NCBI GenBank assembly: GCA_002843155.1
Contig: PGZD01000025.1
Coordinates: 1 to 64,000 of the forward strand
DNA: 64,000 nt
Direction: 5' to 3'
Source: Gammaproteobacteria bacterium HGW-Gammaproteobacteria-3
Lineage (GTDB): Bacteria > Pseudomonadota > Gammaproteobacteria > Methylococcales > Methylomonadaceae
A program made the translations under genes and the position numbers. This document shows, piece after piece, positions 10,051-22,009 of this stretch. Below the pieces are notes generated by a model. That model made no database searches, had not been told where the DNA came from, and was given only the letters and a program-made list of their open reading frames with translations. Each line of letters starts with the position of its first letter. Within the stretch, counting starts at the first letter, position 1.

Positions 10051-10924
10051 CGGTCGATAAATAACGGTCGCCACGATCGCAGATGATGGCGACAATAACC
10101 GCATTGTCGAGTTCGGCGGCCAATTGCAAGGCCGCAGCCACCGCGCCGCCCGATGACACGCCGCCGAAAATGCCTTCTTCGGTCGCCAGTGCGCGCATGG
10201 TGTTTTCAGCAGCAGATTGACCCACTTCGATAATTCTATCGATGCGCCCGGCATCGTAAATTTTCGGTAAATACGCTTCCGGCCAGCGCCGGATACCGGG
10301 AATTTTAGCGCCATCCTGCGGCTGCACGCCGACGATTTGTATCGCGGCATTTTGCTCTTTCAGATACTTTGATGTGCCCATGATGGTTCCGGTCGTCCCC
10401 ATCGCGCTGACAAAATGCGTGACCGCGCCTTGGGTATCGCGCCAAATTTCAGGCCCCGTGCCTTCATAATGAGCTCTCGGATTATCCGGGTTGCCGAATT
10501 GATCGAGAATTCGGCCCTGGCCTTTTTTCTCCATGGCGCGCGCCAAATCAATCGCCCCCTCCATGCTGCCTTCGGCCGGAGTCAGAATGATTTCGGCACC
10601 GTAAGCTTTCATTGACGCCCGGCGTTCCGCGCTCATATTATCGGGCATGATCAGGGTCATTTTATAGCCTTTGATCGCCGCGACCATCGCCAAAGCAATA
10701 CCGGTATTGCCGCTGGTCGCCTCGATCAAACGGTCGCCCGGTGTTATTTCGCCCCGCGCTTCGGCGTGCTTGATCATGCTCAGCGCTGGTCGGTCTTTAA
10801 CCGAACCGGCCGGGTTATTGCCCTCAAGCTTGACCAGTACGGTACTGCCGGTTGACCCCGGCAAACGCTGTAATCTGACCAAAGGCGTGTTCCCGACAAA
10901 AGATTCAATAGTGGGGTAAATCAT
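10034..10924 (-). CDS. cysM: cysteine synthase B (O-acetylserine sulfhydrylase)
   Basis: A 296-residue PLP enzyme that makes cysteine from O-acetylserine and sulfide or thiosulfate. The PLP lysine is K43 in NPAGSVKDRPAL, the substrate loop is TSGNTG at 70-75, and GTTGTIMG binds the cofactor phosphate. The length and the short N-terminus (MIYPTIESFVGNTPLVRL) are those of CysM, which lacks the CysE-binding features of CysK. The ATG at 10924 overlaps the stop of the hepT-like gene (ATGA), an odd coupling of an anabolic gene to a toxin-antitoxin pair. Confidence 0.93.
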   Translation of the reverse strand: MIYPTIESFVGNTPLVRLQRLPGSTGSTVLVKLEGNNPAGSVKDRPALSMIKHAEARGEITPGDRLIEATSGNTGIALAMVAAIKGYKMTLIMPDNMSAERRASMKAYGAEIILTPAEGSMEGAIDLARAMEKKGQGRILDQFGNPDNPRAHYEGTGPEIWRDTQGAVTHFVSAMGTTGTIMGTSKYLKEQNAAIQIVGVQPQDGAKIPGIRRWPEAYLPKIYDAGRIDRIIEVGQSAAENTMRALATEEGIFGGVSSGGAVAAALQLAAELDNAVIVAIICDRGDRYLSTGVFPG

Positions 10925-11355
10925 GAACAAAACCTGTCATCTGTCTGTTGTAATGCAATCAAGCCATTATCGGCAAACTCAAGCAAGCCGTTATAGACTG
11001 CCTTTTTTATTACCGCTCTGATGATGTCGGGCTTAATGTTGAGATAATCATGCACCAGAGCATTTCTCATGCCGATGATTTTACGCCATTCTACGTCATT
11101 GACCGCCTCAACGCCTTGCTGAGACAGTTTTTCAAACGCAACATACGCATCGGCAGGCGCCGTTTTAAACAGGACATAATTCCAATGTTTGGCGATACCG
11201 ATGCAAGCTTCTATGAGAATTTGCAAAGTACGCTCGGCGGCTCGGTACTCATAGCGGCTTAAATCACGTTGGTTAAGTATATCCGTCAAACCTTGTAATT
11301 CATTTTTCAGCTCTGCAAGATGCTCCCGCATCGAGAAAATATAAGTATTATCCAT
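10921..11355 (-). CDS. hepT: HepT-family toxin (HEPN ribonuclease)
   Basis: A 144-residue helical protein of the HEPN/HepT class. The diagnostic RX4HXY motif is present: R97, H102 and Y104 in MRNALVHDY. In characterised pairs this toxin cleaves RNA (tRNA or mRNA) and is silenced when its MntA partner adds AMP to the motif tyrosine. The start overlaps the end of the mntA gene by 8 bp. The 3' end overlaps cysM by 4 bp. All key residues are intact, so the toxin could be active. Confidence 0.85.
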   Translation of the reverse strand: MDNTYIFSMREHLAELKNELQGLTDILNQRDLSRYEYRAAERTLQILIEACIGIAKHWNYVLFKTAPADAYVAFEKLSQQGVEAVNDVEWRKIIGMRNALVHDYLNIKPDIIRAVIKKAVYNGLLEFADNGLIALQQTDDRFCS

Positions 11356-11758
11356 TGATGGTCTGCTGATGCCGGTAATGATAAAGGTAGTCTATTTCCC
11401 ATTTCGACATAATGCGTTGCTGCTCCTGGAACTGTCTGGAAGCATTTTTACTGAGCAATAATTCGCCGTTTTTCAGCACCGACATGGCAAGAGGAATAGG
11501 GGCTGCATTGATATCTAAAATACTTAATTTCCCCTCGGGCAAGTTTAATTTATTTTGCCAGTCCAAAGCGAGTAACTCCGGCCTTAATCGACGTTCAATA
11601 ACATCTTTTTCCCAGGTTTTAAAGGCAACGGCCAAATCAATATCGCTCATTGTATGCGCACTTTTTTTTGCATACGATCCGTATAGCCAGAGTAATTCTA
11701 TAGCGTCGTCCGATTTTGCCAACCGAACCAACCGGGCTTTTATCCGTTTAAAATTCAT
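11348..11758 (-). CDS. mntA: MntA-family nucleotidyltransferase antitoxin
   Basis: A 136-residue minimal nucleotidyltransferase. The GSX10DXD signature is intact: G27-S28, ten residues, then D39-I-D41 (YGSYAKKSAHTMSDIDLAV). In MntA/HepT systems this enzyme AMPylates the toxin's tyrosine and so neutralises it. It is first in the pair, as needed for the antitoxin to be made with or before the toxin. The upstream 454 bp (11759-12212) contain no other gene. Confidence 0.85.
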   Translation of the reverse strand: MNFKRIKARLVRLAKSDDAIELLWLYGSYAKKSAHTMSDIDLAVAFKTWEKDVIERRLRPELLALDWQNKLNLPEGKLSILDINAAPIPLAMSVLKNGELLLSKNASRQFQEQQRIMSKWEIDYLYHYRHQQTING

Positions 11759-15932: not shown

Positions 15933-16502
15933 ATGAACTCACTGCTCCACAAAACACTGTTTTTAATGGGTTTGGTCATGCTCCTGGGACAACAACCCGC
16001 TGTTGCCGATAACCTTCGGCCATTCAATCAGGGTCGATCTCAGTCGAATCGCGCCGCGCCCAATGATAACAGGGGGCATTCCAACCGGGACAGCTCGCGC
16101 TCACGACAAGCCGCCCCGATTCAACCGTACAGACCCGTGCACGGCTCTGAACGCTCCCGTGCGGAGAATCGGACGGAAAGACATCATCAAGCCCCCGCAC
16201 CTGTCTATCAGCATTATTATCAACCCGGGCACAGGGTTTACCCCTTGCCTTACGGTTACAGCAGAATCCTGATTGATGCCGCCGAATATTTTTTTTATGA
16301 CGGTTACTTTTACCAGCCTTCCCGCACAGGTTATGTTATTGTAGAGGCACCGCTTGGCGCGATAGTGGCCGCGCTACCGGCATTACACCATAACGTTTAT
16401 TGGCATGGCCGACCTTATTATATTGTCGGCAATACTTTTTACCGCAAACATCGCAGAGGTTATGTCGTCGTGCCGAATCCAGGCATAGATTACCGGCGCT
16501 AA
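15933..16502 (+). CDS. DUF6515-type exported protein
   Basis: A 189-residue secreted protein. The signal peptide is residues 1-25 (GQQPAVADN). A disordered, arginine/serine/asparagine-rich region follows (about 27-95), then a tyrosine-rich beta domain (about 100-189) with YFFYDGYFYQPSRTGYVIVEAP and GRPYYIVGNTFYRKHRRGYVVV. This is the DUF6515 pattern, function unknown. It follows the Spy-like gene by 80 bp on the same strand, so it may share its stress control. Confidence 0.65.
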   Translation: MNSLLHKTLFLMGLVMLLGQQPAVADNLRPFNQGRSQSNRAAPNDNRGHSNRDSSRSRQAAPIQPYRPVHGSERSRAENRTERHHQAPAPVYQHYYQPGHRVYPLPYGYSRILIDAAEYFFYDGYFYQPSRTGYVIVEAPLGAIVAALPALHHNVYWHGRPYYIVGNTFYRKHRRGYVVVPNPGIDYRR

Positions 16503-16731: not shown

Positions 16732-18714
16732 ATGGAACATCGTTCGCCCGCTATTGAATTTATCAACGACTCAACGCAGCCGCGACCGCCCGTTTTCAAC
16801 CCCACGCCTTGGTTTCGTTCGCGCCGTTTTGTTATTTTCATGGCGGGGTATTTGCTCTGTGCCCTTGTGGGCCTGATCATCAATTACAGCCGTCCCGCCA
16901 TTTATCAAAGCAGCGCCACCCTTTTAACCTCGGCGATGACTGCAATTGACCAGGTGAGCGACGCCGCCGACATTCAACACGTTGCCATACAACGGCAAAT
17001 TCTGCTGGGACAGGAACTGCTCGACGAAACCTTATCGCGCCTGAACAGCACACATCCTGCAAACCAGCTCGGCATAGCCGCTATCCGGCAGATGCTGCAA
17101 GTCAAATCGGTCAGCGAAACCAATCTGGTGGAAATGTCGGCGGAAGGCCCGCAGCCTGAAATTTTATCGGCGCTGATCAACACCCTGATCGATGTTTATC
17201 TGGATGCGCGCGCGGCGGACATCGCCCAAAACAAGGACCGCACGACAGAGAATCTGAGAAATGAACTGCATGATCTGGATATTAAAATAGAAGCCGCACG
17301 GCAAGCGCTGAACCAATTTCGTAATCAACACGACATCACCTCGACACAGCGCGATGAAAACACGGCGCTGACCCGGCTGAAAGGCTTGACCACCGCTCTG
17401 AACAATGCCAGTGAAGAGGAAGTGAAAGCCAAGGCGCGCCTGGATGCCGTAAATAATGCCATCGCCCGTGGCCAGGCAGTGGTGCCGACTCAGGATCAAC
17501 GCAGTCTGGCCGACCTTGAAAAAAGACTGCAGAATCTGCGGGAAAAACTGGCCGAGTTCGATCGCCGCTACACCCGTGAATATATGGCCTTGCAACCTCA
17601 GTTGAAATATATTCCACGGGAAATCAAAAACCTCGAACATCAAATCGAGCAAATGCGCGATTACGGAAAAAATATTGTCCAGACCGATGCTGAACAAAAC
17701 TATGAAGCTGCCCGGCAGGCAGTTCAGCAAATTCGTCTGCAACTGGAAGAGCACAAACAGCAGGCGGCGGAATTCAGCGCCCGCTTTGCCGAACACGAAA
17801 CGCTGCAAACCGATCTGGCAGGATTGGAAGCCATTTACCGGCAAACCCAAGAGCGGCTGGTACAGATAGAGACTCAAAACGCCGACAGATACCCACAAGT
17901 AAGTGTCATCGAAAGGGCGTTTTTGCCGCTTGAGCCGGTACGGCCTCATTATGGCCGCGATACGCTGCTGGTGCTTGCAGGCTCTGTGCTGTTTGGCTTG
18001 TTTTGCGTCTGGATTGCCGAATTTCTGACCCGGCAACCGCCGGAGCCACAACCCGGTCTGACGCTTTCAGGACTGCATGTCTACAAAGATATTGATTTAG
18101 ACAGGCTTAAAGCCCCGCAAACGCAAACCGACAGCAAGAATTTACCACAAGATGGCAATCGGACGCTCGCACCGCCGCCGCAATACCGGGAATTAAGTGA
18201 TACCGAGTTGCAGACATTGATTGCGGCCACCAACAGCATGGGCCGTCAGCTTATCGGCTTGCTGCTGAGCGGTTTGACGCTTGAGGAGGCGGCCGCGCTC
18301 AACGCGGAAAACTTTGACCTGAGCCATAACACGATCGAAATTTCAGGCTCAAATCCGCGCGTCATCCGTATCAGCGAACCTTTAGCCGGGCTGTTTGCCC
18401 GCTACAGCGAGCCGCCGATTTGGCGGAGTCCCAAGTCCCTATCGGTCAATGACCTCGGCGCTCTTATCAGTCTGGCGGCGATCAATGCAGGCCTCCCTTA
18501 TTCCGAAGGAATAGATGCTGAAACAATCCGGCATACTTATATTATTTATCTGGTTCGGCAGGGCTTGCGACTAACCGAGCTGCCAAAACTTGTCGGTAAT
18601 TTAGCACCCGCCGAACAACTGAGTTACAAACATTATTCACCGCCAAGTCCCGGCTTCGGCTCCGAATCCATTGAATGCATCCATCCGGCAATGAATAATG
18701 ACGCGTGGTTTTAG
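16732..18714 (+). CDS. Wzz/GumC-like polysaccharide chain protein with a C-terminal recombinase-like domain
   Basis: A 660-residue protein. Residues 33-51 and 409-428 are membrane helices. Between them lie a Wzz/GNVR periplasmic domain and long coiled coils (about 170-380), and the usual proline-containing approach to helix 2 (LPLEPVRPHYG). This is the layout of exopolysaccharide co-polymerases. In place of a tyrosine kinase, residues 487-638 resemble the catalytic domain of tyrosine recombinases: LSDTELQTLI, LLLSGLTLEEAAALNAENFDL, then AETIRHTYIIYLVRQGLRL and SYKHYSPP. The first catalytic arginine (normally GLRxxE) is threonine, the HxLR histidine is replaced by glutamate, and the LGH histidine by asparagine. 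The R600-H601 pair and tyrosines 632/635 remain. It is therefore probably catalytically dead. Confidence 0.75.
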   Translation: MEHRSPAIEFINDSTQPRPPVFNPTPWFRSRRFVIFMAGYLLCALVGLIINYSRPAIYQSSATLLTSAMTAIDQVSDAADIQHVAIQRQILLGQELLDETLSRLNSTHPANQLGIAAIRQMLQVKSVSETNLVEMSAEGPQPEILSALINTLIDVYLDARAADIAQNKDRTTENLRNELHDLDIKIEAARQALNQFRNQHDITSTQRDENTALTRLKGLTTALNNASEEEVKAKARLDAVNNAIARGQAVVPTQDQRSLADLEKRLQNLREKLAEFDRRYTREYMALQPQLKYIPREIKNLEHQIEQMRDYGKNIVQTDAEQNYEAARQAVQQIRLQLEEHKQQAAEFSARFAEHETLQTDLAGLEAIYRQTQERLVQIETQNADRYPQVSVIERAFLPLEPVRPHYGRDTLLVLAGSVLFGLFCVWIAEFLTRQPPEPQPGLTLSGLHVYKDIDLDRLKAPQTQTDSKNLPQDGNRTLAPPPQYRELSDTELQTLIAATNSMGRQLIGLLLSGLTLEEAAALNAENFDLSHNTIEISGSNPRVIRISEPLAGLFARYSEPPIWRSPKSLSVNDLGALISLAAINAGLPYSEGIDAETIRHTYIIYLVRQGLRLTELPKLVGNLAPAEQLSYKHYSPPSPGFGSESIECIHPAMNNDAWF

Positions 18715-18888: not shown

Positions 18889-20364
18889 CTATCCACGTTT
18901 AGCCCGCAAAGGCCGAATATCGAACCAGCCCGCAATCAGTAAATAGAGAGTAAGCCCCAAGGCACCGCTTGTTGAGGCCCCCCAATGATAATAGGTTATC
19001 AAAAAATACTGGCCGCCGTATAAAAACAGCCCCAAACCAATATAGCCGGTTATTTTGCCGATATGGTAAGCCACGGGGTAAAAACGCCTGCCCAGCAGCC
19101 AGGACAGGCACACCATGAACAGATAGCTGGCCAAAGTCGCCCAGGCCGAACCGTAATAACCCCAGATGGGAATCCACGCGATATTCAGTGCGGCGGTCAA
19201 GCAGGCTCCAGCCAGGGAAACCCAGGCACCGAGGCCGGTACGGTCGGTCAATTTGTACCAGATCGACAAATTCACATAAATGCCCAGCAGCAGATTGGCC
19301 AGCAATAAAACCGGCACTACGGGGAGACCCGCACGGAAATCACGGCCGATGAAATATTTGAAAAAATCGATATACAGCGCGACCACCAGAAAAATAAACA
19401 CGCCGAACAAAACAAAATAATTCATCACCAGCGCATACGCCTGTTTGGCATCGGCCCGCCCTGCGATACTGAAAAAAAACGGCTCTCCGGCATAGCGAAA
19501 AGCCTGTACAAACAAGGTCATGAGTATCGATAATTTGTAGCAGGCGCCATAAATACCCAGCATTTGCAAATTAGTCGACAGATCATAAGGCAGCATGAAT
19601 TTGAGGATGGCGCGATCGAGCATTTCATTGACCATCCCGGCAAAGCCGATAATCACCATGGGCAGCGAATAACTCAACAAGGCGCACAAAATACGCGGGC
19701 TCAGATGAAATCGCACCGTCCTGAATTGCGGCAGCAATAACAGGCTTTTAGCAACACTGGCCAGTACATTGGACAGAAAAATATATCCGACACCAATGCC
19801 CGGATCATAAAGTCCGATGAAGGGGAGATCAGGCCAAAGCGCTTGCAGCTCCGGGCAGACCAGCAGAAAAAAAAGATTGAGACCAATCGTCAGAAAAATT
19901 TCCGTCAATTTGATGCCGACAAAACGCCAGGCGCGGTTTTCGGCGCGCAAACGGGCGAAGGGCAACGCGGTGACCGCATCCAAAGCCAGAATAATGGCGA
20001 ACCATAAAACATATTCGGGGTGTTGCGGATAATGCAGCCGATCGGCCAAAGGCTGTTTTATGAGCAGCATGGCAGCGATAAAAATCAAATTGATCAGCAC
20101 CAGAAAGCTCAAGGCGTTGGCATAAATTACTTCAGTGTCGAAGCCCTCTTTCTGACGGAATCTGAAATAACCCGTTTCCAGACCCCACACCAGCAGCACC
20201 GCGAAAAAACCGGCATAGGCGTAAAACTCCGAAACCACACCATACTCACCCGTCGAGAAGGTATAAGTATAAAGGGGCACCAATAAATAATTCAGAAAGC
20301 GGCCAACGATACTGCTGAGACCGTAAATGGCGGTTTGGGAAACCAATTGCCGAAGAGGGTTCAA
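18889..20364 (-). CDS. Wzx-type polysaccharide flippase (MOP superfamily)
   Basis: About 491 residues, with 12 to 14 predicted membrane helices. The N-terminus (LRQLVSQTAIYGLSSIVGRFLNYLLVPLYT) is that of lipopolysaccharide/exopolysaccharide flippases, which move lipid-linked repeat units across the inner membrane. It stands convergent with the Wzz-like gene, and both probably serve one surface polysaccharide. No ATG fits well. The TTG at 20364, with GGGA 8 bp upstream, starts the protein right at the conserved N-terminus. Longer frames would read through the palindrome at 20386-20417. Confidence 0.8.
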   Translation of the reverse strand: MNPLRQLVSQTAIYGLSSIVGRFLNYLLVPLYTYTFSTGEYGVVSEFYAYAGFFAVLLVWGLETGYFRFRQKEGFDTEVIYANALSFLVLINLIFIAAMLLIKQPLADRLHYPQHPEYVLWFAIILALDAVTALPFARLRAENRAWRFVGIKLTEIFLTIGLNLFFLLVCPELQALWPDLPFIGLYDPGIGVGYIFLSNVLASVAKSLLLLPQFRTVRFHLSPRILCALLSYSLPMVIIGFAGMVNEMLDRAILKFMLPYDLSTNLQMLGIYGACYKLSILMTLFVQAFRYAGEPFFFSIAGRADAKQAYALVMNYFVLFGVFIFLVVALYIDFFKYFIGRDFRAGLPVVPVLLLANLLLGIYVNLSIWYKLTDRTGLGAWVSLAGACLTAALNIAWIPIWGYYGSAWATLASYLFMVCLSWLLGRRFYPVAYHIGKITGYIGLGLFLYGGQYFLITYYHWGASTSGALGLTLYLLIAGWFDIRPLRAKRG

Positions 20365-20385
20365 AATAACTAATCCCGTATATAT

Positions 20386-20417
20386 ATACTCCGCGCGGTT
20401 ATGTTTGCGCGGAGTAT
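20386..20417. repeat. 11-bp-arm palindrome upstream of the flippase gene
   Basis: ATACTCCGCGC and its exact complement flank GGTTATGTTT. It lies about 20 bp upstream of the flippase start, so it would be in the promoter or leader. Similar CG-rich words with AGTATA occur at 40044-40068 and, as half of the structure, near 35605-35620. Confidence 0.5.
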
Positions 20418-20551
20418 AATGCAAAGTCAACGTCCGGCTCAAGTTCAGACGGCATAATCCGGCTTTGAAAAGGGCGCTCAAAAACTACGCGCCATCCTGA
20501 AGTGTTTCAGGTAACTATACAAAACCTCACTGTTTTTAGATATTAATAAAA

Positions 20552-22009
20552 ATGACTTTGGTAAATGCGAACGCTTATTTAAACCAGACAGAATCTCACG
20601 CCCTGGCGCAATGGACAGAATTGTTGCGTGATCATGAGATGCCGATATTTTCGGATACGGCGGGAAGCATCGATGCTATTTTGAACGACAGCAAAAAAGG
20701 CGCGATGGAGCTTGCGGCTGTTATTCTGCAAGACCCGAACCTGACCGCCAAGCTGTTGAAAATGAGCAATACCATTTATTACAATCCGTCCCGGCAAAAA
20801 ATGATCACGGTATCACGCGCGATTGTGGTGCTGGGTTTTAAGGTTATTCGCGAATTGACCCTGGCTTGTTCTTTTTTTGAATCCATTTTGTCGCCGACCA
20901 ATAAACAGCGCGCTAACGAGGAAATTGCCCAGGCTATCCACGCCGCAGTTCAGGCCAAGGCCATTGCGATTGCCGCCAACGACCCGTCACCCGAAGAAGT
21001 TTTCATCGCCGCCTTACTGCATAATATCGGCAGCATTTCTTTTTGGTGCTTTTCCAACGAAGAGGGCGAGCGCATACAAATGTTGATGGCGAACGAAAGC
21101 TATACAAAAGAACAGGCTGAAAAAGAAGTGTTGGATTTCAAATTATCGGAATTGGGCGTTTCGTTAAGCAACGCCTGGAATTTGGGCGGCCTGATCAAAG
21201 AATCGATTCATAAAACAAAATCAAACAAGAATGCCAGAGTGCAACAGGTTCGTTTGGGTTATGAGGTTATCGAAGCATTGAAAGAAGGCGACTCTTCAAA
21301 CAAAATGGAAACTTGTCTGAAAAAAATAGCCAGCATTACCGGACAACCGATACCCATCCTCAAACAGCAGATCCGGACCAGTACGGATGTCGCGGCTACC
21401 CTTGCCGATCATTTTGGCGCGCACGAAGCATCAATATGTATTCAACAGGAGCATCACTCCGCCCCCGTATCCGAAGCGGTAACAACGCCAACCTACGATA
21501 AAAAGCAATTGCAGTTCCAGATTATACAGGATATAGGCGCGCTATTGAGCGGTAAGATAGACATCAATGTGCTGCTTGAAATGGTACTGGAGGGTATACA
21601 ACGCGGCATTGGCATGGATCGGACTATTTTTTCCTTACTGACCACCAATAAAAAGAATCTTATCGAAAAAATTTCCCTCGGCTGGCGCAAAAATAGTTAC
21701 GCGCAAAAAATTAAATTCAACATAAGCACCTCGCCAAAGAATGTTTTTGCCAGCGGCCTGGACAATAGGCAGGGCTTGTGGCTGGACGCCGTTGCCGACG
21801 CGGCCCTTTATATAGCTTCCGACATCGATATTATCGGCAAAAATGCCTGTTTTTTAATGCCCGTGTGTGCCAACAACCAAGTCATTGGTTTGATTTATTG
21901 TGATCGTGTGCTACATCAACAGCCGCTCAACGAAGATGATTTCAATGTTTTTAAATATTTTGTCCAGCAAGCCAACATTGCGCTGACACTATACCGGATA
22001 CAGCATTAA
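20552..22009 (+). CDS. HDOD-GAF domain regulatory protein
   Basis: A 485-residue cytoplasmic signalling protein. Residues about 20-215 form an HDOD domain (ILQDPNLTAKLLKMSNT, SRAIVVLGFKVIRELTL, and the degenerate HD site VFIAALLHNIGSISFW). Residues about 330-480 form a GAF domain with FQIIQDIGALLSG and PVCANNQVIGLIYCDR. HDOD proteins lack phosphodiesterase residues and act as adaptors in motility, cyclic-di-GMP and stress signalling. No partner gene is adjacent. It is divergent from the flippase gene. Confidence 0.82.
   Translation: MTLVNANAYLNQTESHALAQWTELLRDHEMPIFSDTAGSIDAILNDSKKGAMELAAVILQDPNLTAKLLKMSNTIYYNPSRQKMITVSRAIVVLGFKVIRELTLACSFFESILSPTNKQRANEEIAQAIHAAVQAKAIAIAANDPSPEEVFIAALLHNIGSISFWCFSNEEGERIQMLMANESYTKEQAEKEVLDFKLSELGVSLSNAWNLGGLIKESIHKTKSNKNARVQQVRLGYEVIEALKEGDSSNKMETCLKKIASITGQPIPILKQQIRTSTDVAATLADHFGAHEASICIQQEHHSAPVSEAVTTPTYDKKQLQFQIIQDIGALLSGKIDINVLLEMVLEGIQRGIGMDRTIFSLLTTNKKNLIEKISLGWRKNSYAQKIKFNISTSPKNVFASGLDNRQGLWLDAVADAALYIASDIDIIGKNACFLMPVCANNQVIGLIYCDRVLHQQPLNEDDFNVFKYFVQQANIALTLYRIQH

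Follow-up and report, generated by a model that had tools for sequence, protein, structure and literature searches.

The window, a stretch of 64,000 nucleotides from a genome of the Methylococcales, carries at positions 16732-18714 of the + strand an intact open reading frame of 660 residues, in which a polysaccharide co-polymerase (PCP; Wzz/Wzc/GumC superfamily) is fused to a degenerate tyrosine-recombinase catalytic domain. In the AlphaFold model, a first transmembrane helix (TM1, residues 31-53; 16822-16890) leads into a periplasmic PCP domain (16891-17949) made of an alpha/beta base and long coiled-coil helices (residues 142-200, 211-245 and 289-381). A second helix (TM2, residues 407-433; 17950-18030) is followed by a linker of low confidence, predicted to be disordered (residues 434-483; 18031-18180), and by the recombinase-like tail (residues 484-660; 18181-18711), all on the + strand. 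A preliminary description of this DNA had read the protein as Wzz-type with a degenerate recombinase domain at its end, placing TM2 at about 409-428 and an integrase pattern at 487-638. The intact frame and the profile and fold matches to both halves confirm that reading, and the recombinase helices and strands of the model span residues 490-635 approximately.

Convergent with the fusion gene and downstream of it lies a gene for a Wzx-like flippase of 530 residues (18889-20481, - strand; Pfam PF01943, E 2.5e-6, 27.6 bits and thus just under the curated cut-off of 28.2), and beyond it a protein of regulatory type with HDOD and GAF domains (20552-22009, + strand; HDOD E 3e-36). A secreted-type DUF6515 protein (15933-16502, + strand) is encoded directly upstream, preceded by an LTXXQ/metal-resistance protein and a two-component system. 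Further away, at 10921-11758 on the - strand, two adjacent small genes, judged by eye, resemble a HEPN (HepT-like, RNALVHDY) and a nucleotidyltransferase (MntA-like, GSYAKKSAHTMSDIDLAV) pair; standing beside a cysteine-synthase-like gene, they probably form a HepT/MntA toxin-antitoxin module.

The N-terminal half is a divergent member of the PCP superfamily, an assignment resting on profile and fold matches rather than on Pfam, where both Wzz (17.1 bits, cut-off 25.5) and GNVR (15.6 bits, cut-off 27.7) stay under threshold. NCBIfam TIGR03007 matches residues 30-371 at E 3e-18, and a full-length profile of 25 sequences finds both Wzc structures (E 2.5e-12) and PslE (1.2e-7). The full-length model (mean pLDDT 80.9, with a low-confidence stretch at 437-480) finds chains of Wzc and Wza-Wzc octamers as its top Foldseek matches (E 8e-9); WzzE and KpsE are matched as well, and its tail part matches XerA at 6e-6. 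So long and flexible a model superposes poorly overall, and its TM-scores are accordingly low. The AlphaFold model, Foldseek and the Wzc profile agree on the topology of the superfamily, with two TM helices flanking an alpha/beta and coiled-coil periplasmic domain. Membership of this superfamily would imply a ring oligomer that controls polysaccharide length or export. Residue counts over 53 non-identical fusions place an arginine just before TM1 (R32) in 52 of them, consistent with a cytoplasmic N-terminus, and the R/K-rich positions 434-436, right after TM2, are likewise consistent with a cytoplasmic C-terminus; we infer that the tail lies on the cytoplasmic side. Amid the disorder of the linker, a short motif at residues 443-451 (18058-18084; LTLSGLHVY in the window's protein) is conserved, with G447 in 40/53 and Y451 in 43/53, and it is possibly a docking peptide.

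The profile search of the tail against integrase families gave matches throughout. Searched alone, the tail matches XerA_Arch (E 2.4e-7) and XerD (8.7e-5) in NCBIfam, and integrases in PHROG (1.2e-5) and in the PDB (8.6e-5). With a profile of 23 tails, the best PDB match is the archaeal XerA-like structure 4a8e (E 3.9e-11), followed more weakly by IntI4, P2 Int, XerA, XerD and HP1 Int. The AlphaFold model of the tail is confident (mean pLDDT 92.3, pTM 0.89); its first 50 Foldseek matches are tyrosine recombinases throughout, with XerA (E 1.5e-7, TM 0.72 by query length) and P2 integrase in the lead. These fifty matches and the profile matches lead us to regard the fold as a genuine tyrosine-recombinase catalytic fold, so that, by profile and predicted structure, the tail is a true homologue of these domains; the structural comparison thus bore out the preliminary description rather than overturning it. 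Chance resemblance is ruled out by the E values of profile (4e-11) and fold (1.5e-7). Kinase families of Pfam and NCBIfam do not match the tail. A Pfam search of the window's protein also gives no match there, and PF00589 run over the whole genome misses it, which makes the tail easily overlooked. It is not the XerC or XerD of this genome, which encodes two separate Xer-sized PF00589 proteins (open frames of 298 and 310 residues).

Beyond the recombinase fold proper, the fusions share a specific C-terminal extension (residues 636-654; 18637-18693) with the consensus SPPxxGxxIxxIxLLHPAL, in which P652 is found in 52/53 and H651 in 42/53 and the model retains a pLDDT of 87-94. In active recombinases, the C-terminal segment beyond the tyrosine helix is swapped between neighbouring protomers.

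The catalytic residues tell of an inactivated enzyme. Aligned with 4a8e, the Arg-I position is Thr516 (18277-18279), being Thr in 30 and Ser in 15 of the 53 fusions and Arg in none; the histidine of the HxxR motif is Glu597 (18520-18522), with Glu in 31, Asp in 8 and His in none; and the LGH histidine is Asn623 (18598-18600), at a variable position where His occurs in 11/53. The preliminary description had named these three substitutions correctly for the window's protein. Tyrosine recombinases without Arg-I and the general histidine are not expected to carry out recombination chemistry. Since both residues are lost universally (0/53 for each), such chemistry is unexpected for the tail, which, judged from these alignments, is catalytically dead. 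Other positions are kept: the acidic residue after Arg-I, Glu519 (18286-18288), in 52/53; Arg543 (18358-18360), aligned with the Arg of the XerA 'KxRxVPL' strand, in 52/53; Arg-II, Arg600 (18529-18531), in 52/53; and the nucleophile position, Tyr632 (18625-18627), in 49/53, with Leu, Phe or Cys in the remaining four members. Tyr635, of the consensus YxxYSPP, is Tyr in 40/53.

Each of the 53 tails has an acidic pI (4.5-6.5, mean 5.3), and their net charge averages -6.6; the ten ordinary integrase catalytic domains that these surveys also yielded lie on the basic side (pI 8.1-11.3). Where recombinases have their N-terminal core-binding domain, the model shows disordered linker (residues 437-480). 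The tail has neither the basic DNA-binding surface nor the core-binding domain of active recombinases. The preliminary description had proposed that the tail could bind DNA and so couple capsule assembly with the chromosome; such a tether might also hold the machine at a regulatory site. The descent of the fold from DNA-binding enzymes speaks for such a tether, as does TnsF, in which a dead recombinase domain serves target-DNA recognition (PMC10293859). However, the uniform acidity and the missing core-binding domain disfavour DNA binding, and Glu or Asp in place of the catalytic histidine, adjoining the kept Arg-II, should repel the DNA phosphate. We therefore consider a link between capsule and chromosome very unlikely; the dead integrase fold kept by selection as a PCP tail stands, and binding of proteins, which the preliminary description had also listed, is a better fit.

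The main rival of a scaffold role is a sensor. A remnant pocket formed by Arg543, Arg600 and Tyr632 would bind a small anionic ligand, such as a nucleotide sugar, a lipid phosphate or a second messenger, and control the co-polymerase allosterically; the tail may also bind nucleotides, another role listed at the outset. Arg-II, R543, E519, H601 and Tyr632 are kept far more strictly than the fold seems to need, and a polysaccharide machine could profit from sensing its precursors. On the other side, the loss of Arg-I in 53/53 and the replacement of the histidine by Glu or Asp in 39/53 should neutralise an anion pocket, and the tail matches no ligand-binding family. Taken together, we hold this sensor to be unlikely. 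The conservation of Y632 (49/53) and Y635 (40/53) could also be read as a phospho-tyrosine switch, in which both residues would accept phosphate in trans from a BY-kinase, like the tyrosine-rich tail of Wzc, and PCP frames of BY-kinase size (760-800 residues) do occur in several of the same genomes. Yet Y632 takes the place of the ancestral nucleophile, within a helix that is predicted with confidence, rather than lying in a flexible tail, and four members have replaced it by Leu, Phe or Cys; a switch of this kind appears quite improbable.

The fusion is by no means confined to this genome. The tail profile detects it in 65 of the 251 Methylococcales genomes that were sampled and in 25 of 48 genera, the samples being subsets, and its open frames are nearly always about 635-840 residues long. 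Full-length homologues, 39-56% identical over nearly the whole protein, are spread over many genera of the family and order to which this genome belongs. A scan with a closer six-row alignment subset identified Methylotuvimicrobium buryatense 5G, Methylobacter marinus A45, many Nitrosospira and Nitrosovibrio strains, and single Azoarcus and Rubrivivax MAGs as carriers, and full fusions are scattered among other Gammaproteobacteria (G115, G151, G422 and G657). When the whole class was scanned with the full-length profile, a broad gap separated the fusions (E 1e-138 or better) from proteins with only a PCP or only an integrase (E 6e-23 or worse). The genome surveys yielded no stand-alone tail, the integrase-sized matches (about 300-460 residues) scoring far lower, and the plasmid collection yielded ordinary PCPs only. 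A few shorter open frames resemble gene fragments; in two genomes (G808 and G763), PCP sequence adjoins the tail but is broken by a stop or a change of frame. A frame error or chimeric reading frame in the window is ruled out by intact fusions in dozens of genomes, and the recurrence across Methylococcales on which the preliminary description had left its case to depend is established. We found no description of a PCP-recombinase fusion in the open-access literature, which is weak evidence of absence.

In quick, midpoint-rooted trees of the PCP part, the 14 Nitrosomonadaceae sequences form a single clade nested within Methylobacter-like sequences, and the tail tree agrees; the Nitrosospira and Nitrosovibrio fusions were probably acquired by transfer. 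Pairwise distances of PCP part and tail are correlated at 0.89. The simplest reading of these trees and distances would be that PCP part and tail were joined once and have since been inherited together, with lateral transfer besides. Three genomes (G005, G031 and G892; loci L043 and L042) each carry the fusion in two diverged copies.

Mean pairwise identity is 0.49 for the PCP part, 0.27 for the linker and 0.45 for the tail, and the counting-method dN/dS of close pairs is about 0.04-0.15 for the PCP part and 0.1-0.25 for the tail. The tail is therefore under constraint and, as judged from these substitution ratios, under purifying selection. That it could be a functionless, decaying relic is suggested by its evolution, in most close pairs somewhat faster than that of the PCP part, and by a single homologue without it. 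This protein of 504 residues (G011; L056:9213-10727, - strand) has a PCP part and a linker, soon after which it stops, and no tail remnant follows downstream; other genomes of its genus have the tails with the lowest scores in the order. It is a natural loss of the tail, which can therefore be lost. Against a relic stand the dN/dS values, the positions invariant across families, the confident fold, and the keeping of the tail in many genera and after the apparent transfer to Nitrosospira, so that decay is largely refuted and hardly credible. The fusion is ancient, and selection has maintained it in bacteria that oxidise methane or ammonia.

In Methylobacter- and Methylomicrobium-like loci a family-2 glycosyltransferase directly follows the fusion (a cluster found in 10 loci), often with a fatty-acid hydroxylase and a DUF2064 protein next, and 7 loci have GH17-cluster proteins close by. 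In most genomes the fusion stands outside polysaccharide clusters and its neighbours vary; a conserved operon as a guide to function was set aside for this lack of conservation. Wzy-type proteins are encoded in 12/12 fusion genomes and OPX proteins in 10/12. The window's own genome (G000) encodes Wzy-like proteins, and its contig C112 carries a separate, canonical OPX+PCP locus, so the fusion protein is an additional PCP outside that locus.

Based on the above data, we lean, with moderate confidence, towards a PCP-2-type co-polymerase in which a domesticated, dead recombinase domain substitutes for the BY-kinase as a cytoplasmic interaction or oligomerisation module. The coiled-coil part in the periplasm would form a ring together with a Wzy polymerase and an OPX partner, and the tail would hang under the membrane from its flexible linker. 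As a protein-protein module, it could pack into a ring of tails, dock a cytoplasmic partner, or both, and would govern how the co-polymerase assembles and comes apart, with neither phosphorylation nor DNA involved. This scaffold role is proposed by analogy with the dead kinases EcpK and HfsB and with TnsF, which docks TniQ. In its favour, the tail occupies the place after TM2 where Wzc has its BY-kinase; PCP part and tail are conserved as one unit and co-evolve; and glycosyltransferase, GH17 and flippase genes are among the neighbours, with Wzy and OPX in the genomes. Counting against it, the kept Arg-II and Tyr632 exceed the obvious needs of a pure scaffold, and the neighbours vary, G000 has its separate OPX+PCP locus and G011 lacks the tail. 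A bolder version, which we put forward tentatively and as rather doubtful, is that these proteins form a distinct PCP-2 class of methane and ammonia oxidisers, in which recombinase-style cyclic contacts between protomers, including the C-terminal extension, would drive cytoplasmic ring assembly and replace BY-kinase control.

If the scaffold role is true, the cytoplasmic control module of a PCP does not have to be a kinase, active or dead: the fold of an unrelated DNA enzyme was captured and kept through much diversification. The fusion would then allow nature's own test of why the BY-kinase domain matters, chiefly for scaffolding or chiefly for catalysis. It would also be a clear bacterial case of a recombinase domesticated away from mobile elements, since an enzyme that once acted on DNA seems to serve now as a structural component of a machine for polysaccharides. 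Such proteins form a hidden family, likely annotated simply as Wzz- or GumC-like, since the tail is invisible to Pfam.

Among known systems, Wzc and other PCP-2a proteins share with the fusion the two TM helices, the coiled-coil periplasmic PCP domain and a cytoplasmic C-terminal module after TM2. Their module is a P-loop BY-kinase with a tyrosine-rich tail, whereas here it is a recombinase fold without such a tail; the C-terminal BY-kinase domain by which PCP-2a proteins are recognized is absent. PslE and the XrtA-type PCPs (TIGR03007), which lack a BY-kinase, have a homologous periplasmic and TM part, but the C-terminus of PslE, considered as a possible earlier case of such a tail, gives no match to the tail profile at E up to 10 in a profile comparison. 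With XerA, XerD and P2-type integrases, the tail shares the fold, the helix order and the Arg-II and Tyr positions; it differs in lacking Arg-I, the catalytic histidine (53/53) and mostly the LGH histidine, in being acidic and membrane-anchored, and in having no core-binding domain. EcpK/EpsV of M. xanthus and HfsB/HfsA of Caulobacter likewise pair a catalytically dead cytoplasmic module with a PCP, the kinase-dead module being proposed as a scaffold that guides PCP assembly by binding alone (PMC12004946); there the module is a separate protein of kinase fold, and here a recombinase fold fused to the PCP. Finally, TnsF of Tn6022 offers an inactivated tyrosine-recombinase domain in a non-catalytic role that includes partner binding, as it still docks TniQ (PMC10293859). 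It is a transposon-encoded selector of target DNA with zinc fingers and a core-binding domain (PMC10293859), whereas the tail described here belongs to a membrane-anchored co-polymerase.
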